DNA of 42,504 nt. Origin: a bacterium (GTDB taxonomy: Bacteria; Bacillota; Clostridia; Lachnospirales; Lachnospiraceae). Below are positions 642 through 30,399 of this stretch, piece after piece; positions within the stretch are counted from its first letter, which is position 1; each line of letters starts with the position of its first letter. Under the pieces are notes generated by a model. It made no database searches. It was not told where the DNA came from and worked only from the letters and a program-made list of their open reading frames with translations. Made by a program: the position numbers and the translations under genes. The DNA is taken from the NCBI GenBank assembly GCA_023663725.1, contig JAMPGX010000024.1, positions 1-42,504 of the forward strand, given 5' to 3'.

Positions 642-1166
642 ATGAAAACAATTATATTTTACAATTCCCAGACGGGATTTACCAAACGTTATGCGCAGTG
701 GCTCGCGGAGGCGACAGATGCTGAGTGCCTGGAACTGGAAGCCGCCAAAAAGCACACCTATGACAACTATGACGCGATTGTATTTGGAGGCTGGGCCTGC
801 GCGGGCGGTATCAGCAAGCTCAAGTGGTTCAAGTCCCATATGGAGCAATGGGAGGGCAAAAAGCTGGCAGTCTTTTGTGTGGGAGGCAGTCCAGCGGATA
901 ATCCCGACATTCCCAAGGCGCTTCGTGGCAATTTTAATGACTCTCAATGGGAAAGAGTAAAGGTGTTTTACTGTCCAGGTGGCTTTAATTATGAAAAGAT
1001 GTCGGCGACTTCCAAAATGATGATGAAGATATTTATCAAAGCATTAAGAGCCAAGAAGGATAAGTCAGAGGAAGAAAAAGTCATGGCGGATATGATTTCC
1101 CATTCCTATGACATTTCCGATAAAAAATACATCGAGCCTATTCTGGAGTACCTAAATGGCAGATAG
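642..1166 (+). CDS. flavodoxin-domain protein
   Basis: A 174-aa protein beginning KTIIFYNSQTGFTKRYA, the phosphate-binding loop of flavodoxin-type FMN proteins (T/S-x-T-G-x-T pattern). It continues with the alternating beta/alpha pattern of the fold, including YDAIVFGGWACAGG and KLAVFCVGGSP. The likely role is FMN-dependent electron transfer or an NAD(P)H quinone/flavodoxin-type reductase. The protein partner is unknown. An upstream in-frame ATG at 615 overlaps the marR stop, but GGAGGGG at 629-635 favours the start at 642. It is co-transcribed with the MarR regulator. The OFF-oriented sigma-28 promoter at 1334-1360 points antisense toward its 3' end. Confidence 0.85.
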   Translation: MKTIIFYNSQTGFTKRYAQWLAEATDAECLELEAAKKHTYDNYDAIVFGGWACAGGISKLKWFKSHMEQWEGKKLAVFCVGGSPADNPDIPKALRGNFNDSQWERVKVFYCPGGFNYEKMSATSKMMMKIFIKALRAKKDKSEEEKVMADMISHSYDISDKKYIEPILEYLNGR

Positions 1167-1252
1167 GCGCTCAGGGGTTGTGGACAGGGGAAGTACCTGT
1201 TGGAGCGGCGATGAGAAGGGCTTAAAAAATCCATATTGATATATCCCTGTTC

Positions 1253-1269
1253 CTGCGGTATAGCCGCAG
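1253..1269. other. small GC-rich hairpin between the flavodoxin gene and inversion site 1
   Basis: A short palindrome (CTGCGG, TATAG loop, CCGCAG) lies downstream of the flavodoxin gene. It has no T-run, so it is at best a weak terminator. Nothing coding is visible from 1167 to 1288. Confidence 0.35.
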
Positions 1270-1288
1270 AGTCAGAGATGTACACGAC

Positions 1289-1324
1289 AAAGAGGTAACA
1301 CATTTTACATTGTGTTACCTCTTT
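1289..1324 (+). repeat. left inversion site of flagellin switch 1
   Basis: Two perfect 14-bp inverted arms (AAAGAGGTAACACA and its complement) flank an asymmetric 8-bp centre, TTTTACAT. This is the architecture of a core site bound by two tyrosine-recombinase monomers. The reverse complement of the whole site recurs at 2170-2205 with most positions conserved, including 7 of 8 centre bases. The two sites are therefore inverted relative to each other, and recombination would flip the DNA between them. Confidence 0.8.
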
Positions 1325-1333
1325 ACATTTACT

Positions 1334-1360
1334 ATATCGGAGCGAACAGATAAAACTTTA
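1334..1360 (-). promoter_or_regulatory. sigma-28 (flagellar) promoter, pointing left (OFF orientation)
   Basis: Read on the minus strand, this is TAAAGTTT (1353-1360), an 11-bp spacer and TCCGATAT (1334-1341). The sigma-28/FliA/SigD consensus is TAAAGTTT-N11-GCCGATAA, so the match is nearly perfect. A promoter of the same layout sits at the same relative place in unit 2. No comparable promoter is visible between the right site and csrA 1, which suggests this one is meant to serve csrA-flagellin after inversion. Confidence 0.85.
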
Positions 1361-1562
1361 GCCCTATTATACATTTTTTTCAAAAATAATGCTAAGGCCA
1401 TCAAATTCCGGTATTTAGTTAAGGCCAAAGGATATCAATCCTGCCATATTGCAGGCTCTGGCCATAGGAGGAGCAATGGAGTAAATTTGAAGGTGACTCG
1501 TTAACGCTCAAGCAAAGCGACATTACAGACACAAGCCCGTAATGCGCAGAAGGAAGGAAAAA

Positions 1563-2156
1563 ATGAACACAGCACAACCGATCAGAAACAAGGATGACCT
1601 GGCCCATATCAAGGAATATTACAGGGCAGTCAGACCAAACAGCAGAAATTATCTATTGATTATTATCGGATTGAACACGGCGCTTCGGGTGTCGGATATT
1701 GTTCAACTCAAGTGGCAGGATGTATACGATTTTGACTCCGCTACCTGTCGGGAGCATATTCGCCTCGTAGAGCAGAAGACAAAAAAATCATCCGTCATTT
1801 TTCTGAATGACAGCGTGAGAAGCGCGTTGGATGAATATCGTCTGCATCTGATGGCGGAGGGAACCGCTATATCGAATGAGGATTACCTCTTTGGCAGTTA
1901 TGGGAGAGGTGATGCTCATATCACCAGGATTCAGGCTTTTCGCCTTATAAAAAGAGCGGCTGCCGCCTGTGGAATAGAGGGCGTGATCAGCTGCCATTCC
2001 CTGAGAAAGACCTTTGGCTATCATGCATGGAAGCAGGGAATGTCGCCAGTATTGTTGATGAATATATACAATCACTCCTCCTTTCGGGTTACGCAAAGAT
2101 ATCTGGGGATTGAGCAGGATGATCGAGACATGATATTTCAAAACATAAAATTGTGA
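1563..2156 (+). CDS. small tyrosine recombinase (candidate DNA invertase 1)
   Basis: A 197-aa FimB/FimE-sized phage-integrase-family protein, consisting of the catalytic domain without a long N-terminal arm-binding domain. The catalytic set is visible: Arg in NTALRVSDIVQL, Lys in EQKTKKSS, His-x-x-Arg in CHSLRKTFGYHAW, the second His in YNHSSFRV and the Tyr nucleophile in TQRYLG. The start at 1563 follows AAGGAAGGAAAAA; an upstream ATG at 1542 lacks a site. The gene lies inside the segment it probably inverts and reads toward csrA 1, so its transcript could run across the right site. It is clearly related to, but diverged from, recombinase 2. Cognate action on sites 1 is inference. Confidence 0.9.
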   Translation: MNTAQPIRNKDDLAHIKEYYRAVRPNSRNYLLIIIGLNTALRVSDIVQLKWQDVYDFDSATCREHIRLVEQKTKKSSVIFLNDSVRSALDEYRLHLMAEGTAISNEDYLFGSYGRGDAHITRIQAFRLIKRAAAACGIEGVISCHSLRKTFGYHAWKQGMSPVLLMNIYNHSSFRVTQRYLGIEQDDRDMIFQNIKL

Positions 2157-2169
2157 CCCGCCAGCGGGC

Positions 2170-2205
2170 AAAGAGGTAACATAGTGTAAAATCTGTTACC
2201 TGTCT
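2170..2205 (-). repeat. right inversion site of flagellin switch 1
   Basis: The inverted partner of 1289-1324. Arm AAAGAGGTAACATA (13 of 14 identical), centre GTGTAAAA (7 of 8) and second arm TCTGTTACCTGTCT (11 of 14) match the reverse complement of the left site. It lies only 43 bp upstream of csrA 1, the right place for delivering a promoter. Mismatches concentrate in the outermost arm, and the strand-exchange centre is conserved. Confidence 0.8.
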
Positions 2206-2248
2206 AGTATGAGACAGAATCCACAAAGTATTCAAGGAGGAAAGAAAA

Positions 2249-2548
2249 ATGCTTAGAATGTCCGTGGCAACAGAGGAATACTTGATGATCGGCGAGGATA
2301 TCAAGTTGGTGTTTCTGGGAGGGACGGGGAAACATCTGAGAATCATGATCGATGCGCCCAAGGAGGTCAACATCGTCAGGAGCACGGTTCTGGAGAAAAA
2401 TATCACCGACCCCGCGGAAAAGGCAAGGCTCCCGAAGTATCATCGGGAGGAAGAGCATCCGGAGAAATACAGGAAGAAAAATATTTCCATTGTGAGAAAT
2501 ACGGAGGCGTTTACCCTTGAGGAAGGACGCCAGACAGCAAAGTGGTAA
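2249..2548 (+). CDS. csrA: CsrA-family RNA-binding translational regulator, flagellin-linked copy 1
   Basis: A 99-aa protein whose first 55 residues follow the CsrA/RsmA fold: MLRMSVATEEYLMIGEDIKL, then LRIMIDAPKEVNIVR. The latter keeps the conserved I-x-A-P core and the RNA-contacting Arg. A basic tail of about 40 residues extends beyond the usual CsrA length of 60-75 residues. CsrA dimers bind GGA motifs in mRNA leaders; in Bacillus subtilis CsrA represses translation of hag, and FliW antagonises it. No fliW is seen in this window. The start is preceded by AAGGAGGAAAG. It is followed by the flagellin leader and should share the flagellin transcript. Copy 2 has an almost identical protein. 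Confidence 0.88.
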   Translation: MLRMSVATEEYLMIGEDIKLVFLGGTGKHLRIMIDAPKEVNIVRSTVLEKNITDPAEKARLPKYHREEEHPEKYRKKNISIVRNTEAFTLEEGRQTAKW

Positions 2549-2727
2549 TACTCGCTGCTAACCTAGGGGCGGCGACTATTATATACCGGCAGTCCGGTGG
2601 GCGTATTGCCAAGAATGAAAGATATGTCCGCCAGGATGCAGGGAGAACCCGAAGAGGTTCGAGTAACCAATCATATGGCAATACCGGGTAAACGGATGTA
2701 CTCGGTCACAAACAAGGAGGTAAAATC
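2549..2727 (+). promoter_or_regulatory. structured flagellin mRNA leader 1 with two candidate CsrA sites
   Basis: A 179-nt spacer between csrA 1 and flagellin 1, with no base difference found against the leader of unit 2 (7033-7211). Hairpin 2683-2706 (ACCGGGTA paired with TACTCGGT, one G-U) displays AACGGATG in its loop, a strong CsrA-type GGA site. The Shine-Dalgarno ACAAGGAGGT at 2712-2721 also fits the CsrA consensus. A long-range pairing GTATTGCC (2603-2610) with GGCAATAC (2677-2684) and a GAACC/GGTTC hairpin add structure. The two-site layout resembles the Bacillus hag leader, where CsrA blocks ribosome binding. Binding is inferred. Confidence 0.75.
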
Positions 2728-4515
2728 ATGGTAGTACAACACAATTTAAGAGCAATGAATTCCAACAGGATGCTGGGGCTGACATCCTCATCTCAATCCA
2801 AGTCCACAGAGAAACTGTCTTCCGGCTACAAAATCAACCGCGCCGCTGATGATGCTGCAGGGCTGGCGATTAGCGAGAAGATGCGCAAGCAGATTAGAGG
2901 TTTGACACAGGCTACAGCTAATGCACAGGATGGCATCAGTGCAGTGCAGACTGCAGAAGGCGCATTGACTGAGATTCACGATATGCTGCAGAGAATGAAC
3001 GAATTAGCGATCAAAGCTGGTAACGGAACTCAGTCCGAGTCTGACAAGCAGACCGTACAGGACGAGATTGATCAGTTGATCACTGAGATTGACCGTGTTT
3101 CCGAGACCACCAAGTTTAATGAGATCTATCTGCTCAAAGGTTCGGGTGAGAACAAGAATGTCGGCGAGGTTAGCGCCAAGGTTGACGGCAAGATTCAGGA
3201 AGCGGCGATCACGGAGGCGAAAGGCAATATTTATAAGGCCACCTTTGATATGACGGATGCTACTAAGCTGGATGCTGGAACGGAGGATAAGGCGACAATC
3301 ACCTATCTGGACGAGGCTGGTGATAAGAGAACCCGCGATGTGGTCTTTAAGACCGGTAAAGACGAAAAGGCAACTGCTGCTAATCTGGCGGAGGCTGTCA
3401 ACAAGGATGACGTGTTAAAACACATCTTTAAAGCTTCCTCCAATGCTTCCGGTGAAATATCTATTGAGTCCAAGCTGGATGGCACCAAGACGGACGACAC
3501 CAAAAATAAGGTAGACAATATTGAGTTCGAATCGGCCTCCAATAGCGGTGGCACAAGACTGAATAAGTTTACGACTGCCGGTGCTACGAAGGCTGCTGCG
3601 ACGGGAGAGTCTTTCTCCGTTTCGATTGGCGGCAAGAAGGAAGCCAGTACTGCTGGAACAGCGGTGGCGTTTGATACAGGTGCAGGAAATGGTGTACTGC
3701 AGGACGGTGAATCCATTACCATTAATGGCAAGACTTATACTTATGATGCAAGCAAGAACAATGCATCCGTTGCAGATTCCTTCAGGACGCTGGACGATTT
3801 AAATAAGCTTTTGGAGGCGGATGGGTATCAGGCCAATATTGTAGTGACGGCTACACAGGTGGATAAAAAGTATGACGATGAAAATAACGTGCTCAGCACC
3901 GAGAAATCGGATTATTCTCAGGAAATATTAGCGGATAGGACCGATAAGGCCCTACTGGGAGCGCTTGTGGCCACTGATTTTGAGACTGTAAATTTCTTAA
4001 AGGGAGCAGCGCATACCGACGGTACAGCGGATACGGCAACAAACTTTGACAATATTAAGGTTGAGCTGCGCATCACCGAGAAGTCCTCCGCTGAGAAAGC
4101 ATCCGACGTTCTGAGTTTCAGCCTGCAGGTAGGTGCGGACACGACTGAGGAGAACAAGATCGACGTGGATATCCAGTCCATGAGTGCCAAGAGTCTTGGC
4201 ATCAATAAGGTGACAGTGACAGGCAAGGATTCCACTAATGCTGACAAGGCGGTTAATACCATAGCCGATGCTATTGCACAGGTTTCCAAGCAGCGTTCCG
4301 CGCTTGGCGCGATTCAGAACCGCTTAGAGCACACCATCAACAACTTGGATAACGTAGTGGAGAATACTACCGCCGCCGAAAGCCAGATTCGCGATACCGA
4401 TATGGCTACCGAGATGGTCAGATACTCCAACAACAACATTCTGGCGCAGGCTGGCCAAGCGATGCTGGCCCAGTCCAATCAGGCCAACCAGGGCGTACTG
4501 TCCCTGCTCCAGTAA
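2728..4515 (+). CDS. fliC: flagellin 1 (595 aa)
   Basis: The major filament protein subunit, exported by the flagellar type III system. The N-terminal D0/D1 region (1-140) has typical MVVQHNLRAMNSNR, KLSSGYKINRAADDAAGLAI and the LQRMNELA stretch that corresponds to the TLR5-contact region. The C-terminal D1/D0 region (about 510-595) ends QSNQANQGVLSLLQ. The middle (about 145-505) is a long, surface-exposed variable domain unlike that of flagellin 2. N- and C-terminal coding regions are nearly identical at DNA level in both copies. The start follows AAGGAGGTAAAATC. In the orientation shown, its sigma-28 promoter is turned away, so expression is predicted to be low. Confidence 0.95.
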   Translation: MVVQHNLRAMNSNRMLGLTSSSQSKSTEKLSSGYKINRAADDAAGLAISEKMRKQIRGLTQATANAQDGISAVQTAEGALTEIHDMLQRMNELAIKAGNGTQSESDKQTVQDEIDQLITEIDRVSETTKFNEIYLLKGSGENKNVGEVSAKVDGKIQEAAITEAKGNIYKATFDMTDATKLDAGTEDKATITYLDEAGDKRTRDVVFKTGKDEKATAANLAEAVNKDDVLKHIFKASSNASGEISIESKLDGTKTDDTKNKVDNIEFESASNSGGTRLNKFTTAGATKAAATGESFSVSIGGKKEASTAGTAVAFDTGAGNGVLQDGESITINGKTYTYDASKNNASVADSFRTLDDLNKLLEADGYQANIVVTATQVDKKYDDENNVLSTEKSDYSQEILADRTDKALLGALVATDFETVNFLKGAAHTDGTADTATNFDNIKVELRITEKSSAEKASDVLSFSLQVGADTTEENKIDVDIQSMSAKSLGINKVTVTGKDSTNADKAVNTIADAIAQVSKQRSALGAIQNRLEHTINNLDNVVENTTAAESQIRDTDMATEMVRYSNNNILAQAGQAMLAQSNQANQGVLSLLQ

Positions 4516-4550
4516 TACCGCGGACAATGAGACAAGGATTCATTGCAAAA

Positions 4551-4583
4551 CAGGAGACCCGCCGAATGGCGGGTTTTCCTGTG
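4551..4583 (+). terminator. terminator after flagellin 1
   Basis: The stem CCCGCC / GGCGGG (4558-4573, loop GAAT) is followed by TTTT. It is extended by outer pairing ACAGGA with TCCTGT. It lies 40 bp past the flagellin stop and before the left site of switch 2. Confidence 0.85.
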
Positions 4584-4642
4584 GATACAGAGCAATGTAT
4601 TTTATGGATGATTTGGGGTACAATTTATCCAGAGCATAAAAC

Positions 4643-4679
4643 AAGGATGCAACACTTTGTGCTAAAATGTTGCATCCTT
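4643..4679 (+). repeat. left inversion site of flagellin switch 2
   Basis: Perfect 12-bp inverted arms (AAGGATGCAACA and its complement) surround a 13-bp asymmetric centre CTTTGTGCTAAAA. The reverse complement recurs at 6634-6670 with 12 of 13 centre bases and about 19 of 24 arm bases conserved. The arm sequence differs completely from that of switch 1, so a separate recombinase specificity is likely. Confidence 0.8.
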
Positions 4680-4692
4680 ATTTACAATACCT

Positions 4693-4719
4693 ATATCGGT
4701 GCTTTTTCAAATTACTTTA
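4693..4719 (-). promoter_or_regulatory. sigma-28 promoter of switch 2, pointing left (OFF orientation)
   Basis: On the minus strand: TAAAGTAA (4712-4719), an 11-bp spacer, then ACCGATAT (4693-4700). Spacing and -10 match the sigma-28 consensus and the switch 1 promoter. It lies 13 bp from the left site and fires back toward the 3' end of flagellin 1, against the terminator at 4551-4583. Confidence 0.82.
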
Positions 4720-4751
4720 GAGCAAAATGAAAAAATTTGCTTATTTTTTTC

Positions 4752-4780
4752 TTGCATAGTTCCTCTCTGTATGCTACGAT
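4752..4780 (+). promoter_or_regulatory. sigma-A promoter of rpn 1
   Basis: TTGCAT (4752-4757), a 17-bp spacer and TACGAT (4775-4780). The same arrangement occurs before rpn 2. Near-identity between the two rpn upstream regions begins just before this promoter and continues into the gene. Confidence 0.6.
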
Positions 4781-4879
4781 ATTTTCAAAGCATATATTCT
4801 TTTTAGTTTGGCAGAGTCATTCTCTATTCAGAACATCAGAAAATCTATGCTTTACATTCAAAAAAGGACAATTGAAAAG

Positions 4880-4938
4880 GGGCAGGAGATTTTCAGATAT
4901 TCTGATTATCTCCTGCGGACAGAAGCAGGAGGTATGAA
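4880..4938 (+). promoter_or_regulatory. rpn 1 leader with two mutually exclusive hairpins over the Shine-Dalgarno
   Basis: In the leader, the segment CTCCTGC (around 4911-4917) can pair with an upstream GCAGGAG (around 4882-4888) or with GCAGGAG inside the ribosome-binding site (around 4926-4932). The first hairpin would free the site and the second would bury it. The leader of rpn 2 (about 8923-8981) has the same sequence. Whether this works as a translational switch is inference. Confidence 0.5.
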
Positions 4939-5949
4939 ATGCACAGACAGGTAGAAGATACCTACTTATCCCAGGCAGTTGTGGCTGCAGGGACTACCGC
5001 CGCCTATGACGCCAATGTAAAATTTCTGCTGGCGGACAAGCAGATATTGGCAAGGATCTTGAAATATACGATTCAGGAATGCAGAGATATGGAGGTTTCA
5101 GATATTATTTCTTGCATAGGCGATGATATCGAGGTGGCGTCAGCTGCACTGGACCCAGGGCTGAGCAATCTGGGGCGCGTCAAGGGGGATAAAGAAGAGG
5201 ACAATGTTCCAGGGGAAGGCGCGATATATTATGATATCCGTTTCAACGCATATCTTGGACGGGCGAAAACAAAATTTCTGATCAATCTGGAGGCGCAGAA
5301 GCTGACAGGCCATAGCGCATTGGGATATCATCTGGAGAACCGGATTGTATATTATTTGGCCAGGATGGTCTCGGCCCAGAAGAACACGGAATTCGGTCAT
5401 TCGGATTATGACAGCCTGAAGAATGTGCGCAGTATCTGGATATGTATGGACAGCGGGGAAAGGGGCGACTCGATAGAGGAGATCAATCTGGAGCGGAAGA
5501 CCGTGTATGGGGAGGGGGATAACACTCACAGCGTGAAGCTGATGCAGGGCATCATCATCAATATACGTGCAACCTCCGGAGAGAAGCCATCAAAGAATCG
5601 CCTGATTGCCATGTTGGAGGTGCTACTGTCAGAGAAGAATGTACAGGATAAGAAGGATATCTTGGAGAAAGAGTATGGAATGATCATGCAGGTAGAGACC
5701 GAAGGGAGGATGCAGTCTATGTGTAATTTATCAGAGGTATTTATTGAGAAGGGGATTCGGCAGGGAGCCCTGAATCAAAGTCGTCGTGGAATCTTGGAGC
5801 TGCTGGAGGATTTGGGGGTTATTCCAGAAGATATACTTACTGTTGTCCAGCATGAAAAGGATATGGACACCCTCCGCATATGGCTCAAGGCGGCAGCCAG
5901 AGCAGAGAGTATGGATGCTTTTAGAGAGAAAATAAACGCAATATGTTGA
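4939..5949 (+). CDS. Rpn/PD-(D/E)XK family nuclease (putative transposase), copy 1
   Basis: A 336-aa protein of the Rpn / PD-(D/E)XK nuclease family transposase type. The nuclease core spans about residues 20-210. The catalytic acidic pattern is visible as YYDIRFNAYL (Asp) followed by FLINLEAQK (Glu-x-Gln/Lys). The C-terminal third is helical. Rpn proteins are magnesium-dependent DNA nucleases that promote RecA-independent recombination in E. coli, and many members are still annotated as transposases. The start follows AGGAGGT. The gene lies inside invertible segment 2 and is a close duplicate of rpn 2, differing mainly near the C-terminus. Its role with the flagellin loci is unknown. Confidence 0.82.
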   Translation: MHRQVEDTYLSQAVVAAGTTAAYDANVKFLLADKQILARILKYTIQECRDMEVSDIISCIGDDIEVASAALDPGLSNLGRVKGDKEEDNVPGEGAIYYDIRFNAYLGRAKTKFLINLEAQKLTGHSALGYHLENRIVYYLARMVSAQKNTEFGHSDYDSLKNVRSIWICMDSGERGDSIEEINLERKTVYGEGDNTHSVKLMQGIIINIRATSGEKPSKNRLIAMLEVLLSEKNVQDKKDILEKEYGMIMQVETEGRMQSMCNLSEVFIEKGIRQGALNQSRRGILELLEDLGVIPEDILTVVQHEKDMDTLRIWLKAAARAESMDAFREKINAIC

Positions 5950-5960
5950 TTTGAAGTACC

Positions 5961-6000
5961 GCAAAAGGGGACTGACGGCAGAGTGTCAGTCCCTTTTTGC
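5961..6000. terminator. bidirectional terminator between rpn 1 and recombinase 2
   Basis: A strong stem-loop: GCAAAAGGGGACTGAC pairs with GTCAGTCCCTTTTTGC, with a short loop and T/A runs on both sides. It can end the convergent transcripts of rpn 1 (+) and recombinase 2 (-), and would keep working after inversion of the segment. Confidence 0.85.
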
Positions 6001-6021
6001 GTGCAAATATTTCGGTATGGC

Positions 6022-6597
6022 CTACAGACAGATATTGGAAAAAACAGCGTCCTTATCGTCTTGTTCGATGCAGAGATAGCGCCTGGTAATCTGGTATGAG
6101 GAGTGATTGTAGATGCTCATCAGCAGCGCAGGGGGTGTTCCCTGTTTCCATGCCTGATATCCGAAGGTCTTCCGCAGGGAGTGGCAACTGATATGGTCTG
6201 GCAATCCAACCTTTTCTGCCGCGTGCCGGATGATTCGGTAGGCTTGGCAGCGGGATAAAGGTTCCCCCGATTTACGACTGCTACAAAACAGATAGGGGTT
6301 TGAAGCGTCAGTATAGTAGCGCCTGCGGTATTCCCGTAGCAAAGTCTGTAATTCGCCGTTAATCAAGAGTCGGCTATATTTTCCTGTTTTTTGCTCTTTT
6401 ATTGTCAAATGCTCTTTGACCTGACCGTCATGATACAGCATATCCCAAGTCAGATGCAACAGATCGTTGATGCGCAGGGCAGTGTTCAATCCGGCGATAA
6501 TCAGGGCATAATTGCGGTAGTGAGGTTCAACGTACAGATAGTAATTTTTGAAATCCTGCAATGATTTTTTGTCTCGAATAGGTTGTGTTGCGCTCAT
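6022..6597 (-). CDS. small tyrosine recombinase (candidate DNA invertase 2)
   Basis: A 191-aa FimB-sized tyrosine recombinase related to recombinase 1 by shared QPIR, NTALR, SCHSLRKTFGY and IYNHSS blocks but clearly diverged. The catalytic residues are present: Arg in NTALRINDL, Lys in EQKTGKYS, CHSLRK (His-x-x-Arg), NHSS (His) and RRYLC (Tyr). The minus-strand start is preceded by GAGGAG. It lies at the right end of invertible segment 2 and reads away from csrA 2, the opposite direction to recombinase 1 in its unit. Different recombinase plus different site sequence suggest each unit has its own cognate pair; this is inferred. Confidence 0.9.
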   Translation of the reverse strand: MSATQPIRDKKSLQDFKNYYLYVEPHYRNYALIIAGLNTALRINDLLHLTWDMLYHDGQVKEHLTIKEQKTGKYSRLLINGELQTLLREYRRRYYTDASNPYLFCSSRKSGEPLSRCQAYRIIRHAAEKVGLPDHISCHSLRKTFGYQAWKQGTPPALLMSIYNHSSYQITRRYLCIEQDDKDAVFSNICL

Positions 6598-6633
6598 AGT
6601 AATCTCCTCTCAGTTTTTGAATGAATTGTGAAT

Positions 6634-6670
6634 CGGGATGAAACATTTTAGCACAAAAAGTTGCATCCTG
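6634..6670 (-). repeat. right inversion site of flagellin switch 2
   Basis: The inverted partner of 4643-4679. The centre TTTTAGCACAAAA matches 12 of 13, and flanking arms GGATG, AACA and GTTGCATCCT are conserved. It lies 62 bp upstream of csrA 2. Between it and csrA 2 is a small hairpin (CCCCGC / GCGGGG, 6699-6713) just before the ribosome-binding site. Confidence 0.8.
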
Positions 6671-6732
6671 AACAAAAAAGATTGCAAGGCGGCAGACGCC
6701 CCGCATGGCGGGGGATGCAGGGAGGTAGAAGG

Positions 6733-7032
6733 ATGCTTAGAATGTCAGTGGCAACAGAGGAATACTTGATGATCGGCGAGGATATCAAGCTGGTGTTCCT
6801 GGGAGGAACGGGGAAACATCTGAGAATTATGATCGATGCGCCCAAGGAGGTCAACATCGTCAGAAGCACGGTTCTGGAGAAAAATATCACCGACCCTGCA
6901 GAAAAGGCGAGGCTCCCGAAATATCATCGGGAGGAGGAGCATCCAGAGAAATACAGGAAGAAAAATATTTCCATTGTGAGAAATACGGAGGCGTTTACCC
7001 TTGAGGAAGGACGCCAGACAGCAAAGTGGTAA
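6733..7032 (+). CDS. csrA: CsrA-family RNA-binding translational regulator, flagellin-linked copy 2
   Basis: A 99-aa protein whose predicted sequence is the same as copy 1; only scattered silent differences are seen in the DNA. It has the CsrA core (IGEDIKLVFLGG, IMIDAPKEVNIVR) plus the same basic C-terminal extension. The start follows GGGAGGTAGAAGG. As in unit 1, it stands between the right inversion site and the flagellin leader. When the switch is ON, the same mRNA should carry both the repressor and its flagellin target. Strong sequence conservation of two copies argues for recent duplication or gene conversion. Confidence 0.88.
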   Translation: MLRMSVATEEYLMIGEDIKLVFLGGTGKHLRIMIDAPKEVNIVRSTVLEKNITDPAEKARLPKYHREEEHPEKYRKKNISIVRNTEAFTLEEGRQTAKW

Positions 7033-7211
7033 TACTCGCTGCTAACCTAGGGGCGGCGACTATTATATACCGGCAGTCCGGTGGGCGTATTGCCAAGAAT
7101 GAAAGATATGTCCGCCAGGATGCAGGGAGAACCCGAAGAGGTTCGAGTAACCAATCATATGGCAATACCGGGTAAACGGATGTACTCGGTCACAAACAAG
7201 GAGGTAAAATC
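7033..7211 (+). promoter_or_regulatory. structured flagellin mRNA leader 2 with two candidate CsrA sites
   Basis: I find no difference from leader 1 over 179 nt. The candidate CsrA hairpin is at 7167-7190 and the Shine-Dalgarno site ACAAGGAGGT at 7196-7205. Complete conservation of a non-coding stretch, while the central coding parts of the flagellins diverge, argues for selection on leader structure or for gene conversion. Confidence 0.75.
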
Positions 7212-8645
7212 ATGGTAGTACAACACAATTTAAGAGCAATGAATTCCAACAGGATGCTGGGGCTGACATCCTCATCTCAATCCAAGTCCACCGAGAAGCT
7301 GTCTTCCGGCTACAAGATCAACCGCGCGGCTGACGATGCTGCAGGGCTGGCTATCAGCGAGAAGATGAGACGGCAGATCAGAGGTCTGACCCAGGCGTCC
7401 GCCAATGCGCAGGACGGTATCAGCGCAGTGCAGACCGCAGAGGGCGCTCTGACCGAAGTGCACGATATGCTGCAGAGAATGAACGAGCTGGCAACCAAGT
7501 CTGCCAACGGAACTAACTCTCAGGAGGAGCGCGATTATATCCAGAGTGAAGTTGACGCTTTGATCGACGAGATCGACCGTGTCGCCGAAACCACCAAGTT
7601 CAACGAGATATATTTGCTCAAAGGCGAGGGCACAAAAGAGGCGACATTTACCACAAAGATTGAGGCGGTAGAGGGTTCCGATCTTACGGTGACGTACAAA
7701 AAGGGATATGGTACAGACAGTGGTATTGAGTTTAAAACGGGCAAAGCGGACAGCGATATCGCAGGCCTAGGCAATACTAATGGCGGTATTTATGTTGCTG
7801 GTTCCGACACTGCGATTAAAACATTGGCCGATCTGAAACAGCATCTGGAAGTAGATAAGGCTGGAAACGTTAAAGTTAAAGACGGCATCCAGTTCTATAA
7901 GGAGGCGGCTAGCACAACTACAGAGTGGGGAGCCCAGAAAACGGCGGTGGCAGAGGCGGATATAACAAATCTGTTGCAGCCTGGCAGCACAAAGCTCTCG
8001 TCGAAAAACGACGGAACTGTTCTCGTGAATGAAGAAGATCTCAAAAACAGTTTTGACGAGGACGGCACTTATACCAGCAAGTTATACTATAAGAATGGCT
8101 CAGGCGCATGGACGGAGATCGGCGGCGACCGAATCAAGGAGTTTGTTGACGTCAAGGCCAAGGTAGAAGAGGTGGAGGCTTCGGAAGAGACCGAAACCAA
8201 ACAGGTGACAGGCGACCTGAAGTTCAACCTCCATGTGGGCGCAGAGGGCAACAGCGATAACAAGATTGAAGTTGTGATTGAGGCTATGAGCGCGGAAGGT
8301 ATTGGTATTGACAGTCTCAGATCCAAGGAAGGGCAGGAGCATTCGGGCGGCGTGAGCAGTGAGAACTCCGCCACTGCATCCATCGAGACCATCAAGGCTG
8401 CCATTAAGAAGGTTTCTCAGCAGCGTTCCGATCTTGGCGCCGTGCAGAACCGCTTAGAGCACACCATCAACAATCTGGACAACGTTGTGGAGAACACCAC
8501 TGCGGCAGAAAGCCGGATTCGCGATACCGATATGGCTACCGAGATGGTCAGATACTCCAACAACAACATCTTGGCCCAGGCAGGTCAGGCGATGCTGGCC
8601 CAGTCCAATCAGGCCAATCAGGGCGTACTGTCCCTGCTCCAGTAG
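7212..8645 (+). CDS. fliC: flagellin 2 (477 aa)
   Basis: A flagellin with conserved D0/D1 ends almost identical to flagellin 1 (MVVQHNLRAMNSNR start, LQRMNELATKSANG, QSNQANQGVLSLLQ end). The central domain (about 145-385) is shorter and unrelated. The filament surface would therefore differ antigenically depending on which copy is expressed, while assembly and secretion signals stay constant. The start follows AAGGAGGTAAAATC. Predicted silent in the orientation shown, because its sigma-28 promoter at 4693-4719 faces away. The chain csrA-leader-flagellin should be one transcript. Confidence 0.95.
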   Translation: MVVQHNLRAMNSNRMLGLTSSSQSKSTEKLSSGYKINRAADDAAGLAISEKMRRQIRGLTQASANAQDGISAVQTAEGALTEVHDMLQRMNELATKSANGTNSQEERDYIQSEVDALIDEIDRVAETTKFNEIYLLKGEGTKEATFTTKIEAVEGSDLTVTYKKGYGTDSGIEFKTGKADSDIAGLGNTNGGIYVAGSDTAIKTLADLKQHLEVDKAGNVKVKDGIQFYKEAASTTTEWGAQKTAVAEADITNLLQPGSTKLSSKNDGTVLVNEEDLKNSFDEDGTYTSKLYYKNGSGAWTEIGGDRIKEFVDVKAKVEEVEASEETETKQVTGDLKFNLHVGAEGNSDNKIEVVIEAMSAEGIGIDSLRSKEGQEHSGGVSSENSATASIETIKAAIKKVSQQRSDLGAVQNRLEHTINNLDNVVENTTAAESRIRDTDMATEMVRYSNNNILAQAGQAMLAQSNQANQGVLSLLQ

Positions 8646-8695
8646 GGTTCATTGTAGTGCTACCGACAGTAGAAATACTCATGCTGTCACAAAAG

Positions 8696-8757
8696 AAAAG
8701 GAGCTGTTGCAAAATGGACGAGTAATCGTCTGTGGAGCAGCAGCTCCCTCTTTTCGC
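8696..8757 (+). terminator. probable terminator after flagellin 2
   Basis: An inverted repeat, AAAAGGAGCTGTTGC with GCAGCAGCTCC followed by CTCTTTT, about 50 bp past the flagellin stop. The 25-nt loop and the interrupted T-run make it weaker than the flagellin 1 terminator. The stretch 8646-8788 holds nothing else I can identify. Confidence 0.5.
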
Positions 8758-8794
8758 CATAGAAAATCCCATAGAAAATTTCCTATTTTTTCTC

Positions 8795-8823
8795 TTGCAC
8801 ATTTACTCCTTATATGCTACGAT
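8795..8823 (+). promoter_or_regulatory. sigma-A promoter of rpn 2
   Basis: TTGCAC (8795-8800), a 17-bp spacer and TACGAT (8818-8823), at the same relative position as in rpn 1. The following leader to 8981 is almost identical to that of rpn 1, including the alternative hairpins around the Shine-Dalgarno. Confidence 0.58.
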
Positions 8824-8981
8824 ACTCTCAAAGCATATATTCTTTTTAGTTTGGCAGAGTCATTCTCTATTCAGAACATCAGAAAATCTATGCTTTACAT
8901 TCAAAAAAGGACAATTGAAAAGGGGCAGGAGATTTTCAGATATTCTGATTATCTCCTGCGGACAGAAGCAGGAGGTATGAA

Positions 8982-10022
8982 ATGCACAGACAGGTAGAAG
9001 ATACCTACTTATCCCAGGCAGTTGTGGCTGCAGGGACTACCGCCGCCTATGACGCCAATGTAAAATTTCTGCTGGCGGACAAGCAGATATTGGCAAGGAT
9101 CTTGAAATATACCATTCGGGAATGCAGAGATATGGAGGTCACGGATATTATTTCTTGCATAGGCGATGATATCGAGGTGGCGTCAGTAGCGCTGGCCCCA
9201 GGGCTGAGCAATCTGGGGCGGGTCAAGGAGGATAAAGAAGAGGACAATGTTCCAGGGGAGGGCGCGATATATTATGATATCCGTTTCAACGCATATCTTG
9301 GACGGTCGAAAACAAAGTTTCTGATCAATCTGGAGGCGCAAAAGCTGACGGGCCATAGCGCATTGGGATATCATCTGGAGAACCGGATTGTATATTATTT
9401 GGCAAGGATGGTCTCGGCCCAGAAGAATACGGAATTCTGTCATTCGGATTATGACAGTCTGAAGAACGTGCGCAGTATTTGGATATGCATGGACAGCGGG
9501 GAAAAGGGCGACTCGATAGAGGAGATCAATCTGGAGCGGAAGACCGTGTACGGGGATGACGATAACGCCCACAGCGTGAAACTGATGCAGGGCATCATCA
9601 TCAATATACGCAGTACATCTGGAGAGAAGCCATCCAAGAATCGCCTGATTGCCATGCTGGAGGTATTGCTGTCAGAGATGAATGTGCAAGATAAGAAGGA
9701 TATCTTGGAGAAAGAGTATGGAATGATCATGCAGGTAGAGACCGAAGGGAGGATGCAGTCTATGTGTAATTTATCGGAGGTATTTATTGAGAAGGGTATT
9801 CTGCGGGGAATGAAGCAGGGTATGCAACAGGGAATCTTGGAGTTGCTGGAGGATTTGGGTGTTATTCCAGAGGACATATTTTCTGTCATTCAGCAGGAAC
9901 AGGACATGGATACCCTCCGCATATGGCACAAGGCGGCAGCCAGAGCGGAGAGTATGGATGCCTTTAGGGAGAAAATACACTGTGCGGAAAAGGAAAATCT
10001 AATTGTCAGTCAGTATACATAG
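8982..10022 (+). CDS. Rpn/PD-(D/E)XK family nuclease (putative transposase), copy 2
   Basis: A 346-aa close duplicate of rpn 1 with the same nuclease motifs (YYDIRFNAYL, FLINLEAQK). The main differences are in the C-terminal part, where KGILRGMKQGMQQGILELL replaces the corresponding stretch, and in a short extra tail. Gln/Gly/Met-rich repeats like this before ILELLE are typical of the variable C-terminal end of Rpn proteins. The start follows AGCAGGAGGT. It lies downstream of flagellin 2 and outside the inverted sites found here. Together with rpn 1 it suggests that the promoter-leader-rpn block was copied as a unit. Confidence 0.82.
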   Translation: MHRQVEDTYLSQAVVAAGTTAAYDANVKFLLADKQILARILKYTIRECRDMEVTDIISCIGDDIEVASVALAPGLSNLGRVKEDKEEDNVPGEGAIYYDIRFNAYLGRSKTKFLINLEAQKLTGHSALGYHLENRIVYYLARMVSAQKNTEFCHSDYDSLKNVRSIWICMDSGEKGDSIEEINLERKTVYGDDDNAHSVKLMQGIIINIRSTSGEKPSKNRLIAMLEVLLSEMNVQDKKDILEKEYGMIMQVETEGRMQSMCNLSEVFIEKGILRGMKQGMQQGILELLEDLGVIPEDIFSVIQQEQDMDTLRIWHKAAARAESMDAFREKIHCAEKENLIVSQYT

Positions 10023-10066: not shown

Positions 10067-11812
10067 ATGGAAAAAATGCAAAACAGACACATCGCAGAGA
10101 GGCAGCGCAGCACCAGCTACAGGAACTTCAACGTGGGCATATATTGTCCGGTCCACAATGTGAACAGCATCACAGATCTGGAGGAGTTTGACAGGAAATT
10201 CCGGCATCTCTCCGATCATGTGAAGGTCGGCCGCGCGTACATTGAGTGCTACAGGGGCATGGAATGGGCGGACAGGGAACAGCTTTTGAAGGTGAAGGGA
10301 TATTTCGAGAGCAAGGGGATCGCCACCTCGGGCGGCATCACGACCTGCGCAGGCGGTGCCAATGAGGAGGGCTTTATCTCCCTGTGTTATTCCAGACCGG
10401 AGGGGAGAGATATCTTACAAAAGGCGGTAAGGCTGAGCGCGGAGGTTTTTGACGAGCTGATACTGGATGATTTCTACTTTATGAATTGCAGATGTCGGGA
10501 CTGCATCGCCCAGAAGGGCGACCGCACATGGGCGCAGTTCCGCCTTGACCAGAAGAGGCAGATCACGGATGAGATCGTGATGAAGACGGCCAAGGAGGTC
10601 AATCCCGATATGAATGTCATCGTCAAATTCCCTCAGTGGTACGAGGTGTTTAACGAGACAGGCTATGATCTGCGGATGGAGCCGGCTTTGTTTGATGCGA
10701 TCTATACCGGCACGGAGACCAGAAATCCCACCTACGCTGCGCAGCACCTGCCGAAGTACCTGAGTTACTTCGTCATGCGCTATCTGGAGAGCGCGGCGCA
10801 GGGCAGAAACCTGGGCGGCTGGTTTGATCCCTATGAGTGTACCTACAATCTCACCTCCTATCTGGAGCAGGGCTATCTGACCCTGTTTGCCAAGGCCAGG
10901 GAAGTGATGCTGTTCTGCCTCGGCTCTCTGATCGAGGACTCCTCGCTGCGGCTGTTTGCTCCGGCGGTGGGCGAGCTGTTTGCGGAGGTGGACGCGTATC
11001 TGGGGCGGCTCGGCAATCCCAGAGGAGTGGCGGCCTACAGGCCCGCCTGTGCCAGAGGGGAGGACAATCTGCACAACTATCTGGGGATGTGCGGCATTCC
11101 GTTTGAGCCCTGTATCGATTATCCAGAGCAGGAGAAGGTGATCTTTCTTGCTCAGGGGGCGGCGGATGATCCTCAGATCGTGGAAAAGATGAAAAAGAGT
11201 ATGCTGGAAGGGGCCTATATCGTGGTAACCAGCGGATTTGTCAGCAAGCTGGGAGACGCGTTCGGAGAGTTTGTGAATGTGAAATACTCGCCCAGAAAGG
11301 CGCTGGTCAGTGAATATGCGGATACCCGAGACAACGGTGTGACCGTGAGCGGCAAATATGTTGGAACGAAGCCAATCCTGATTCCTCAGCTTGACTACTG
11401 CACCAACGACGTATGGGAGCTGGCGGCGGCCTATGGGACGGACAACAATTTTCCTATCGCGCTCCGCTGCTCCTACGGGGCGGGAAAGATCAGCGTTATC
11501 ACGATTCCTGACGATATGGGCGACTTATACCATTATCCCGTTCAGGTGCTCAATGTAATCCGGCGGCTGCTCATGAGAGAGATGCCTGTTACGATCGACG
11601 GACCGGCGAAGGTACAGCTCTTTGTCTACGACAACGATACGGTGATTGTACGCTCCGATCTGCCCTATACCGAGCAGGTGACCCTGAGGCTGGCGGACGG
11701 TATCAAAGGGGTGAAGGAGCTCGTAAAAGGTTTCAGTTTCCCCGTATCGGACGGAAAACTGCATCTGTCTATGGCGTCGGGGATAAACTATGTGCTGGAG
11801 TTGGTGAAATAG
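10067..11812 (+). CDS. uncharacterised 581-aa protein, possibly glycoside-hydrolase-like
   Basis: Not recognised with confidence. The first 300 residues read like a TIM-barrel hydrolase: NVGIYCPVHNV, a GIATSGGITTCAGG turn, then LILDDFYFMNCRCRDC, with a paired Asp and three Cys in a possible active or metal site. Around residues 330-470 the pattern (KVIFLAQGAADDP, GAYIVVTSGFVSKLGD) resembles the class-I-amidotransferase-like domain of GH42-type enzymes. The C-terminal part is beta-rich. There is no signal peptide or membrane helix, so it is probably cytoplasmic. The start follows AGGAGGG at 10051-10057. It is 44 bp after rpn 2 and may be read through from it. The function is a guess only. Confidence 0.6.
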   Translation: MEKMQNRHIAERQRSTSYRNFNVGIYCPVHNVNSITDLEEFDRKFRHLSDHVKVGRAYIECYRGMEWADREQLLKVKGYFESKGIATSGGITTCAGGANEEGFISLCYSRPEGRDILQKAVRLSAEVFDELILDDFYFMNCRCRDCIAQKGDRTWAQFRLDQKRQITDEIVMKTAKEVNPDMNVIVKFPQWYEVFNETGYDLRMEPALFDAIYTGTETRNPTYAAQHLPKYLSYFVMRYLESAAQGRNLGGWFDPYECTYNLTSYLEQGYLTLFAKAREVMLFCLGSLIEDSSLRLFAPAVGELFAEVDAYLGRLGNPRGVAAYRPACARGEDNLHNYLGMCGIPFEPCIDYPEQEKVIFLAQGAADDPQIVEKMKKSMLEGAYIVVTSGFVSKLGDAFGEFVNVKYSPRKALVSEYADTRDNGVTVSGKYVGTKPILIPQLDYCTNDVWELAAAYGTDNNFPIALRCSYGAGKISVITIPDDMGDLYHYPVQVLNVIRRLLMREMPVTIDGPAKVQLFVYDNDTVIVRSDLPYTEQVTLRLADGIKGVKELVKGFSFPVSDGKLHLSMASGINYVLELVK

Positions 11813-11848: not shown

Positions 11849-12826
11849 TCAGGCCGGCCCGCTCCCGCCATCGCCACATTCCTCCGAACAGGCCAGCGTT
11901 TGCCGCTGAATATGAAAGTCCTTTCGCGGGTGCTTGGACGACAGGATATCCCTCTGCTTCGCCATGGTCACATGGGTATAGACCTCAGTGATGTTGATGG
12001 AGCTATGCCCCAGCATCTCCTGAATGTAACGGATATCCACATCCGCTTCTAGCAGGCTGGTGGCAAAGGTGTGCCGGAACATATGCGGGGTGATATGCTG
12101 GTCGATCGCAGCGAGGGAGGCATACTTATTGATCATCCTGCGCACAGACTGGTCTGATAGCGCCCGTCCCGACTGATTGACGAAAAAGTGATTACAATCC
12201 AGCATTTTCTGTCCAAATGTGTTCTTGTATGTGATCAGCATGCGGATGACATCATCATTGCCAATCTGTATTTTCCGCTCCTTGGAGCCTTTCCCGTAGA
12301 TCAATATGTAGTTATCGCAGAGATTGACATCGCTGATTTTCAGCGCGCATAATTCGGAGATACGCATTCCCGTGGCGAAGAGCAGTTCTATGACCGCTAT
12401 GTCCCGAAGCGTACTGTTGCGCTGGTAATCGGTCTCGGCTGTCTCGTGCTGCCTGTAGATCGTGGACAGAAAGGTCTCTACCGTGTGAAGTGGAATCGTC
12501 CTGGGGAGGATGACGGGCTCCCGAAACCGTATATGCATCCGGCTAAACGGGTTCCGGTCGAGCAGCTCCCTGTATTCAAAATAATGAAAGAGCGCCTTGA
12601 TGGACGCAATCTTCCGCTTTACAGTCTTGGGCTTATATTTCTGATGCAGGCCCGCGATATAGTTTTCGAGCAGAGCGGGGGTTACGGCCTCGATACCGCT
12701 GACGGGGATGCTGGCCAGAAATTGTGTCAGGTCGATTCGATAGGCTTTTAACGTTTTACCGTCCAACCTTTTCTGATATTTGCAATATTCGAGATAACGC
12801 TCAATCTGTGTCTGTAAGTTGTTCAT
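11849..12826 (-). CDS. XerC/XerD-like tyrosine recombinase
   Basis: A 325-aa full-length integrase with an N-terminal SAM-like core-binding domain (1-90, QIERYLEYCKYQKRLDGKTL) and a catalytic domain. Catalytic residues: Arg in FATGMRISELCAL, Lys in YGKGSKERKI, His-x-x-Arg in PHMFRHTFATSLL, His in LGHSSI and Tyr in TEVYTHV. It is longer than the usual 295-300 aa XerC/D because of a C-terminal tail. The start follows AGGAGG. It is clearly different from the two small recombinases and could be a chromosome-dimer resolvase or a site-specific integrase. Its promoter region contains a perfect 12-bp inverted repeat and two direct repeats that may be its own binding sites. Confidence 0.88.
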   Translation of the reverse strand: MNNLQTQIERYLEYCKYQKRLDGKTLKAYRIDLTQFLASIPVSGIEAVTPALLENYIAGLHQKYKPKTVKRKIASIKALFHYFEYRELLDRNPFSRMHIRFREPVILPRTIPLHTVETFLSTIYRQHETAETDYQRNSTLRDIAVIELLFATGMRISELCALKISDVNLCDNYILIYGKGSKERKIQIGNDDVIRMLITYKNTFGQKMLDCNHFFVNQSGRALSDQSVRRMINKYASLAAIDQHITPHMFRHTFATSLLEADVDIRYIQEMLGHSSINITEVYTHVTMAKQRDILSSKHPRKDFHIQRQTLACSEECGDGGSGPA

Positions 12827-13260: not shown

Positions 13261-13362
13261 GATGTATATCCGACAGTTGTGTGGTAAGCGTATAATGGAA
13301 GATGGAAGGCAGCGCAGAAAAATAGCAAAGGATTGTCCAACGAAGTGGGAAGAGGAGGTGCC

Positions 13363-14913
13363 ATGAATAAGCGAGAAAGAATGATTAAGGGAATGGAACT
13401 TGGGGTGATCGGAATCATGCTGGTGTTTCTTACTGTGGCTAACTTATTTTTATCAGAGCCTAGGCCCTTAGGTGAGTGGGATGATTTTGCGTTGGTAACG
13501 GTCTCCCTTTTGCATGACGGTAATTTCACCGTTTCACAGGAAGATATCATATATGCCAGAGAGGTGCTGCCAGAGTGGAATTGCTATCTTGATTCCTATC
13601 GCCTGTCAGGATACTTTGCGGGCAACGGAGATGAGTTGTCATGGTATTTTCCCAGCTACAGTTTGTTGTGTCTGCCGATTATGTGGGGATTGAGACTATT
13701 GCATTTCTCAGGTACAAATACTTTTGTGATCGTTAATATCTTGCTGTTTATAAGTGCTCTGCTAGTAATCTGTTTCCACAGTACGTTCCAAGAGATAACA
13801 AAGTTGGGGCTTATCATGGCTCTGTGCGCTAATCCCGTGATTATTTATACCTGTTGGACATCGGGAGAAATATTTATTTTTTCTTTTCTGATTATGGCGC
13901 TTGTACATTGGGAGAGAAAGGAATATGGGAGGACGGCGATTTTCTTATCCGTTGCGTCCACATTAAATCCTACGGTATTGGCCGCTGGATTGATTGTGAT
14001 TCTGGAGTTTATGATAGGGGAGATACGAAAGAGAGGCATCAGGGATATTTTGCGCAGACCGGGATATATTCTGTTAGTCGCCTGCTGTTGGCTGCCTTGC
14101 TTTTTGCCCTTTGTCTGGAACCTCTGCTATGTCGGTCATATTAACATGACCGCGGCCACGGAGATGAATGTCGAGCTGCGACGGGTAGTAGGAAGGTTCT
14201 GGGCGTATTTATGGGATTTAAATTTAGGTTTTTTACCTTATTACGGCTTGTTTTTTCTGGCTTTCTGGATTATTTTGGTGATGGGGGTAATTCAGAAGAA
14301 ATGGCATATTTGCGCTATGGGAGCAGCATTTCTGGCAGTCGTTATGAGCTATTCTCTGGAGGTGCATATCAATTCGGGAATGAGTGGTCTGGCGAGATAC
14401 AGCGCATGGTCGGGAACGATTATGCTTATGATGGTTTTTGCGTATTTTGATCGATTTAGAGGACAGACATTGCGAAATATCACAGCGCTGGGGACAATTG
14501 CTGCCGTTGCTGGAAACGGAGGGATGGTGTTGATGATAATGGCATCCAATCCAATCGGATATTTGGAGATGACTCCCCTTGCCGCATGGACGTTGGATCA
14601 TGTGCCGGCCCTATACAACCCGCTGCCAGATATTTTCAACGCGCGAACTAATCACTTGGATCAGGTTGTATATGAACAGAACCTTCCAATTGTATATTGC
14701 AATGGGCAGAACGAGATTCGAAAAATATTACTGAGACCAGAATATTGCGATAGAGTATTAGAGATGGTGACATGTGATGGCGAGGTATATGAATGGCTTG
14801 AAGAGGAGCTTGCTGTCATAAAGACGGGTGGCAGGGAGAGATATTTATCTGTGACCGACAGGTATCCTATGTACTATCGATCGTCAGGAAATGAAACAGG
14901 CAGTTCTCAATAA
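13363..14913 (+). CDS. polytopic membrane protein, GT-C glycosyltransferase-like
   Basis: A 516-aa protein with about 10-12 predicted membrane helices, starting with a helix after MNKRERMIKGMELGVIG. It has an early acidic extracellular loop after helix 1 (PLGEWDDFALV), where GT-C lipid-linked-sugar glycosyltransferases carry their catalytic Asp/Glu. A soluble C-terminal tail of about 90 aa follows. The family match is by topology only. The start at 13363 is chosen from AGAGGAGGTGCC. It sits between the Met T-box and metG with only 16 bp to metG, so it should respond to methionine starvation. It is more AT-rich than metG, suggesting later insertion into the metG transcription unit. Confidence 0.65.
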   Translation: MNKRERMIKGMELGVIGIMLVFLTVANLFLSEPRPLGEWDDFALVTVSLLHDGNFTVSQEDIIYAREVLPEWNCYLDSYRLSGYFAGNGDELSWYFPSYSLLCLPIMWGLRLLHFSGTNTFVIVNILLFISALLVICFHSTFQEITKLGLIMALCANPVIIYTCWTSGEIFIFSFLIMALVHWERKEYGRTAIFLSVASTLNPTVLAAGLIVILEFMIGEIRKRGIRDILRRPGYILLVACCWLPCFLPFVWNLCYVGHINMTAATEMNVELRRVVGRFWAYLWDLNLGFLPYYGLFFLAFWIILVMGVIQKKWHICAMGAAFLAVVMSYSLEVHINSGMSGLARYSAWSGTIMLMMVFAYFDRFRGQTLRNITALGTIAAVAGNGGMVLMIMASNPIGYLEMTPLAAWTLDHVPALYNPLPDIFNARTNHLDQVVYEQNLPIVYCNGQNEIRKILLRPEYCDRVLEMVTCDGEVYEWLEEELAVIKTGGRERYLSVTDRYPMYYRSSGNETGSSQ

Positions 14914-30392: not shown

Positions 30393-30399
30393 ATGCGCT

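Follow-up and report, generated by a model that had tools for sequence, protein, structure and literature searches.

Two segments between inverted repeats upstream of csrA and flagellin genes

In the window, by which we mean the whole analysed stretch of 42,504 nucleotides, two pairs of csrA-like and flagellin genes are each preceded by a DNA segment that is enclosed by inverted sites and encodes a recombinase. The first segment (switch 1) is bounded by a distal site at 1289-1324 and by a csrA-side site at 2170-2205. A sequence-only reading had described these 36-bp sites as inverted copies, and this is borne out: their 32-nt arms are 91% complementary, and the inverted-repeat score is 23, compared with at most 14 among 200 dinucleotide shuffles. 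The distal site has perfect 14-nt palindromic arms and, taken leftward and outward, looks like a hairpin with a U-rich tail. The csrA-side site is an imperfect palindrome and an outward T-run is absent.

Between the two sites lies a sigma-28 promoter on the minus strand (1334-1360), which reads TAAAGTTT-N11-TCCGATAT from 1360 to 1334. The same reading had called it near-perfect and pointing left, and indeed its score of 15/16 was reached by none of 2000 shuffles of the segment; against one strict consensus it scores 14. Scanning the whole window for sigma-28 sites, with a spacer of 11 only and CGAT required, gave four matches (1360, 3930, 4719 and 24798), and a scan of the region of switch 1 and flagellin 1 with spacers of 10-12 added no site upstream of csrA 1. 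Within these scans it is true, as had been claimed, that no other sigma-28 promoter precedes this gene. With the promoter directed away from csrA-flagellin 1, the segment in the window is in the OFF state.

The segment also encodes tyrosine recombinase 1 on the plus strand (1563-2156, in a frame open from 1542). The 1542-2156 ORF matches Phage_integrase (E 5.4e-22) and contains the catalytic residues, confirming that an enzyme of FimB size is encoded here. An invariant Met in a 15-row alignment makes 1563 the likely start, which gives a protein of 197 aa. Weak similarity, below the cut-off, was found to two NCBI models of tyrosine-type DNA invertases. To the right follow, all on the plus strand, CsrA-like protein 1 (2249-2548, 99 aa), a diverged switch-type CsrA without Arg6 and with Arg44, the flagellin 1 leader (2549-2727) with GGA motifs, one of them within the ribosome-binding site, and flagellin 1 itself (2728-4515, 595 aa).

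A second complete switch, overlooked in the sequence-only reading, occupies 4644-6669 and would serve flagellin 2. Its site pair scores 27, compared with at most 15 among 200 shuffles. The sites carry GATGCAAC arms; the distal one (4644-4678) shows AGGATGCAAC arms and an outward U-rich tail, and the csrA-side one (6635-6669) is an imperfect palindrome. The sigma-28 promoter (4693-4719, minus strand) points leftward, towards the 3' end of flagellin 1, so that this switch is OFF as well. Tyrosine recombinase 2 (6022-6597, minus strand) is about 48-50% identical to recombinase 1; both frames are intact and all catalytic residues are present. CsrA-like protein 2 (6733-7032, plus strand) has the same amino acid sequence as CsrA-like protein 1, and flagellin 2 (7212-8645, plus strand, 477 aa) has ends that are 86-90% identical to those of flagellin 1. 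The leaders of the two flagellin genes are identical across the 200 nt shown, and both flagellin frames are intact.

Segment 2 contains, in addition, an ORF (4939-5949, plus strand) whose similarity to a PD-(D/E)XK nuclease family transposase stays below the threshold (E 0.027). This ORF follows flagellin 1; a second copy, 91% identical, is found at 8982-10022 on the plus strand and is not part of the switch mechanism. We observed an ORF of this sub-threshold type after three flagellin matches (window 4939-5949 and 8982-10022; L026:5211-6206), one copy being trapped within switch 2. Just past the flagellin cassettes, 11849-12826 encodes a tyrosine recombinase of full length that has a SAM-like domain at its N-terminus. 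The long ORFs at 10067-11812 and 13333-14913 (581 and 526 aa) gave no Pfam match at a maximal E-value of 5. Further downstream lie two neighbouring domain fusions, PTS EIIC with EAL (28284-30392) and acetyltransferase with GGDEF-EAL (30373-33276).

Elsewhere in the genome we found two homologues of the recombinase at E <= 1e-50, on contigs C49 and C13; the fifth match, at E 1.7e-9, is a weak one. The C49 homologue belongs to a complete module in the OFF state. The C13 switch (L021:8335-9243) is in the ON orientation; its csrA frame stops after 59 aa, and no flagellin match was found within the 18-kb stretch or on the contig. This fourth switch is a relic. The genome thus holds four segments with four different cores, of which three precede csrA-flagellin and one precedes a cut-short csrA without flagellin. 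It also contains nine strong and two weaker Flagellin_N matches, two canonical fliW-csrA pairs and a FliA-type sigma factor. A flagellin gene on contig C5, which no recombinase match adjoins, has two promoters of the same sigma-28 motif.

Recurrence and orientation of the modules

Recombinase 1 has matches at E <= 1e-30 in 36 of 101 genus genomes. When an alignment of 15 homologues was used for the search, 43 of 138 genus genomes gave a match at E <= 1e-60; at E <= 1e-45 this was the case for 33 of 397 sampled family genomes (32 of 334 genera) and 48 of 392 sampled order genomes. The order search furnished 25 new loci, and csrA or flagellin lay within about 1.5 kb in six of them and in three of the 20 outside the family, counts in which distant csrA and flagellin genes may be missed, the queries having come from this family. 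For the census we scanned 104 stretches with 108 recombinase matches, comprising all listed genus- and family-level places and, of the order-level places, only ten more in full; L017 and L019 were excluded from the final count as duplicates of L087 and L112, to which their contigs are equal in length. In 29 of the 108 scanned matches neither csrA nor flagellin occurs within 2.5 kb on the side reading away. Because so many relatives (29/108; 17/20 outside the family) have neither gene nearby, a recombinase on its own does not speak for a flagellin switch; the family of these enzymes extends beyond the switch. Seven stretches of viral contigs matched a search pattern, but no relative of recombinase 1 is encoded in any of them; a phage origin is unsupported.

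We counted as a complete one-sided module a site pair around a recombinase, together with an outward promoter (score at least 12, at most 80 bp from a site) and a csrA or flagellin gene reading away. This anatomy is conserved in 70 of the 108 matches, from 55 genome handles and one named MAG. csrA adjoins all 70 modules and flagellin 66, leaving four with csrA only. The outward promoter is present in 70/70 by construction, since it is required for completeness; the same requirement is satisfied by 24 of 2100 shuffled segments, and a score of at least 14 is reached by 54 of the 70 real segments versus one of the 2100 shuffles. The -10 box stands a median of 18 bp (range 3-58) from the site that it faces, and the segments are 706-2553 bp long. 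Neither complete one-sided nor bipolar in the scan were 36 of the 108 matches: L088 and L126 have sites and promoter, csrA or flagellin not being found, and in each of the remaining ones the site pair, the promoter or the flagellin neighbour is missing.

The orientation of the one-sided modules is strongly skewed, with 67 OFF and three ON (C13 of the genome studied here, L160 and L234). Inside the genus 45 of 47 modules are OFF, outside it 22 of 23. With such a skew, inversion could be rare or biased.

Homologous modules in opposite states differ in just the way that an inversion would leave behind. When L160 (ON) is compared with L097 (OFF), the segment aligns in the reversed direction (73% over 763 nt) while the csrA side aligns forward (76% over 301 nt). 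The same holds for C13 (ON) and L087 (OFF), with 78% over 776 nt for the reversed segment and 81% over 212 nt for the forward csrA side, and C13 compared with switch 1 of the window (OFF) again shows an inverted segment next to a collinear flank. In these opposite-state homologues the change of orientation falls at the sites. On the distal side the forward alignment extends only 24 nt past the site in both L160/L097 and C13/L087; L160/L097 has two further weak forward matches there, and the 24 nt of C13/L087 bear a resemblance to the inner flank on the promoter side as well. Because the match is so short and has this resemblance, the distal flank is weaker evidence for inversion than the csrA side. 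Both orientations do occur, between homologues. The earlier proposal of a flagellin ON/OFF switch drawn in its OFF state is thereby supported: the module recurs, and homologues are found in opposite orientations that turn at the sites.

Opposite orientations could also be produced by separate insertions of a small mobile cassette, made up of recombinase, sites and promoter, without any inversion. Related recombinases outside the family, which mostly have no recognisable csrA or flagellin (3/20; 6/25 overall), would suit such a cassette. L160 and its OFF relative L036/L097, however, keep the same csrA-side outer half-site and leader despite the reversed segment, and across 69 modules the csrA-side and distal sites differ systematically, which is unexpected from random insertion. 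We give separate insertions next to no credence and return to inversion as the preferred explanation.

Strand exchange by a tyrosine recombinase needs a matching core. The central 6 bp are identical within the site pair in 71 of 71 modules, an identity inflated by the inverted-repeat search, which seeds on eight identical bases; between modules these positions carry an information of only 0.1-1.3 bits. In the odd-centred modules (n=48), positions -7, -6 and -4 on the outer side are identical in only 33-35, and the inner half-site (+3 to +13) is identical in 45-48. The core therefore stands out on the outer side only, the inner half-site being equally uniform. L133, whose two sites are unequal in length, was excluded from the analyses of cores, palindromes, T-runs and catalytic residues. 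Recombinases with the same arm class share 57% identity versus 51%, a difference that none of 1000 label shuffles equalled. This correlation fits cognate pairs of recombinase and site, and relatedness alone may contribute to it. In the 12 genomes with several modules (27 modules) all cores are distinct within each genome; we do not count this as evidence of insulation between switches, because chance gives distinct cores too.

Tyrosine recombinases use an R, K, H, R, H, Y set of residues for catalysis, and the corresponding R49, K79/K82, H152, R155, H178 and Y187 are present in all 71 aligned recombinases. One of them belongs to L119 (L119:4085-4675, G408:C61), an OFF module whose recombinase is interrupted by a stop, at residue 74 within the aligned stretch, and which is possibly a locked switch. 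This case bears on the question of whether the family once inverted and is by now fixed in the window, with flagellins 1 and 2 either silent or expressed by read-through only. The 67 OFF modules among 70 would agree with such a fossil, as would the C13 relic with its 59-aa csrA frame and no flagellin match found, and the imperfect csrA-side site of switch 2. Against it stand the intact recombinases 1 and 2 with their complete catalytic residues, the 6-bp cores that are still matched within each pair, and the intact flagellin frames. We regard a fixed OFF state in the window as improbable and favour a working switch.

Site asymmetry, bipolar modules and the switch-type CsrA

The two sites of a module are not equivalent. 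The ten bases that follow outward contain on average 6.5 T at the distal site and 2.7 at the csrA-side site; of 69 modules, 66 have more T on the distal side, one has fewer and two have equal counts. At least six T are reached at 54 of 69 distal sites versus four of 69 csrA-side sites. Inward, the means are 5.5 T (distal site) and 3.9 T (csrA-side site), and six or more T are found in 35/69 and 16/69, respectively. Given these inward averages, the side that stands out is the one facing csrA, and not the distal side alone. The mean folding energy is -14.5 kcal/mol at the distal and -10.0 kcal/mol at the csrA-side site, and the worse palindrome is the csrA-side one in 38 modules and the distal one in six (25 equal; n=69). 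Since the distal site combines outward T-richness with the stronger fold, a transcript made in the OFF state probably ends there, leaving the path to csrA open when the promoter is ON. A part of the distal T-run may serve as terminator for upstream genes.

Two modules are bipolar, with divergent flagellins at both ends (L156:2365-6450, G012:C33; L164:1691-6223, G028:C6). Neither outlet reaches six T in these (3 to 5 of 10, counted from the site midpoint and not from the palindrome centre). In such a module one promoter would choose between two flagellins.

These observations weigh against another reading, in which the promoter acts as it is drawn: its product on the distal side would be an antisense or small RNA, and transcription of csrA-flagellin would start at a different promoter or run on from the recombinase gene. 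The drawn orientation prevails in 67 of 70 modules, and weak sigma-70-like matches do lie inside the recombinase gene, although across positions 900-9000 such matches have a shuffle-like frequency (14 versus a shuffle mean of 11.6, sd 3.8). A promoter meant for the distal side would nevertheless fire into a site that is terminator-like in 54/69 modules, while the csrA side is open (terminator-like in 4/69). To the left of switch 1, both genes that gave Pfam hits are oriented towards the switch and not the opposite way, and the promoter of a bipolar module faces a flagellin whichever way round it lies. We give very little credence to a promoter that works only as drawn. A related point applies to the inversion model that we prefer: switch 1 and the other type A modules have their recombinase gene directed at csrA, so that read-through could express csrA-flagellin in the OFF state.

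The csrA genes of the modules encode a distinct form of the protein. In canonical CsrA, Arg6 and Arg44 are important. All 70 switch-type CsrA proteins have kept Arg44, and Arg6 is missing, position 6 being V, I, L or M in 70/70; both canonical CsrA proteins of the same genome contain Arg6. At csrA-tldR loci the linked CsrA is enriched on the leader of the flagellin that is thought to be repressed by TldR (PMC13418256). By analogy, the co-encoded CsrA-like protein might regulate flagellin translation, which we propose more weakly than the switch itself. GGA motifs occur in eight of eight flagellin leaders examined (nine strong flagellin matches, the one on C33 omitted); being found in all of them, they are non-discriminating, and we do not use them as support for a likeness between CsrA and FljA.

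Taken together, the locus is in all likelihood a self-contained flagellin phase-variation switch driven by a tyrosine recombinase. The FimB-size enzyme, encoded inside, would recombine the two inverted sites with their common 6-bp core and so flip the segment. In the ON orientation the outward sigma-28 promoter near one end would drive csrA-flagellin; in the OFF orientation it would fire at the distal site, whose hairpin and U-rich tail are likely to end transcription. From the compared sequences we infer, for this strain, that the segment inverts and its promoter is transcribed, that the distal site terminates and that each recombinase acts on its own site pair.

A broader proposal, which we offer only tentatively and with some reservation, is that Lachnospiraceae may possess a modular form of flagellin phase variation independent of that in Salmonella. 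Each cassette would have its own recombinase, an invertible sigma-28 promoter and a private core. The distal site would act as the OFF terminator, the diverged CsrA would reset the translation of the other flagellins as a counterpart of FljA, and the bipolar versions would alternate two flagellins.

Such a switch would matter for the host. According to PMC13353774, the Lachnospiraceae flagellin CBir1 is immunodominant as an antigen in mice with colitis and in about half of patients with Crohn's disease. If such flagellins switch cell by cell, the flagellin that the host meets is set by the state of the population as well as by gene content, and surveys that take flagellin repertoires from genes would then misjudge exposure. 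With the strong OFF bias (67/70) and the bipolar modules, sequencing reads can put this directly to the test.

Relation to known invertible switches

In the open-licence literature, taken without the inverton survey of Jiang et al. 2019, we recognised no description of tyrosine-recombinase switches at Lachnospiraceae flagellins. Sigma-28 promoters and csrA are named for the flagellins of Roseburia and Eubacterium in PMC3720852, from which the words recombinase and phase variation are absent.

The closest published case that we have seen (PMC13418256) is the hin-linked inversion of a FliA-type promoter at csrA-tldR loci. There, too, an invertible promoter segment lies upstream of a flagellin-linked csrA, a genome can have several loci (an Oscillibacter has four csrA-tldR loci), and control of flagellin isoforms is suggested (PMC13418256). 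Those loci have a serine invertase, hin, beside a segment of about 120 bp (PMC13418256), whereas here a tyrosine recombinase lies inside a segment of 706-2553 bp. Among ten window proteins scanned, none gave a TnpB/TldR-like Pfam hit, and the locus does not belong to the hin-csrA-tldR type. The novelty apparently lies in the type of recombinase, the modularity and the bipolar forms; the idea is close to that of the hin-csrA-tldR loci.

In the hin-fljBA system of Salmonella, a flagellin promoter is inverted by a serine recombinase encoded inside the segment, and the operon contains a second, regulatory gene. The invertible flagellin promoter, the recombinase within the segment and the second regulatory gene are all shared with the modules described here. 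The window enzyme, however, is of the tyrosine and not the Hin type, and in the bipolar modules a single promoter faces either flagellin directly, which is unlike hin-fljBA. Phase variation by hin-fljBA is mentioned in PMC13418256 and PMC11868660.

The RecV flagellar switch of Clostridioides difficile resembles ours in its tyrosine recombinase, its inverted repeats and its ON/OFF control of flagella (PMC7446863). It is, however, a 154-bp switch within the flgB leader that is devoid of a functional promoter and acts via Rho, and what it controls is the flgB operon and not one flagellin (PMC7446863). The segments described here are not leader switches of this type, as they contain a sigma-28 promoter motif.

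The modules share most with fim-type invertons: the catalytic set, inverted sites with matched cores, an outward promoter and both orientations (here between homologues) were all found. In Escherichia coli the fimB and fimE genes lie outside the fimS segment, and the target is the fimbriae. The invertible promoter and the small tyrosine recombinases of about 200 aa are thus common to both systems, while fimS differs in having its recombinases outside the segment and a fimbrial target; fimS is described in PMC7446863.
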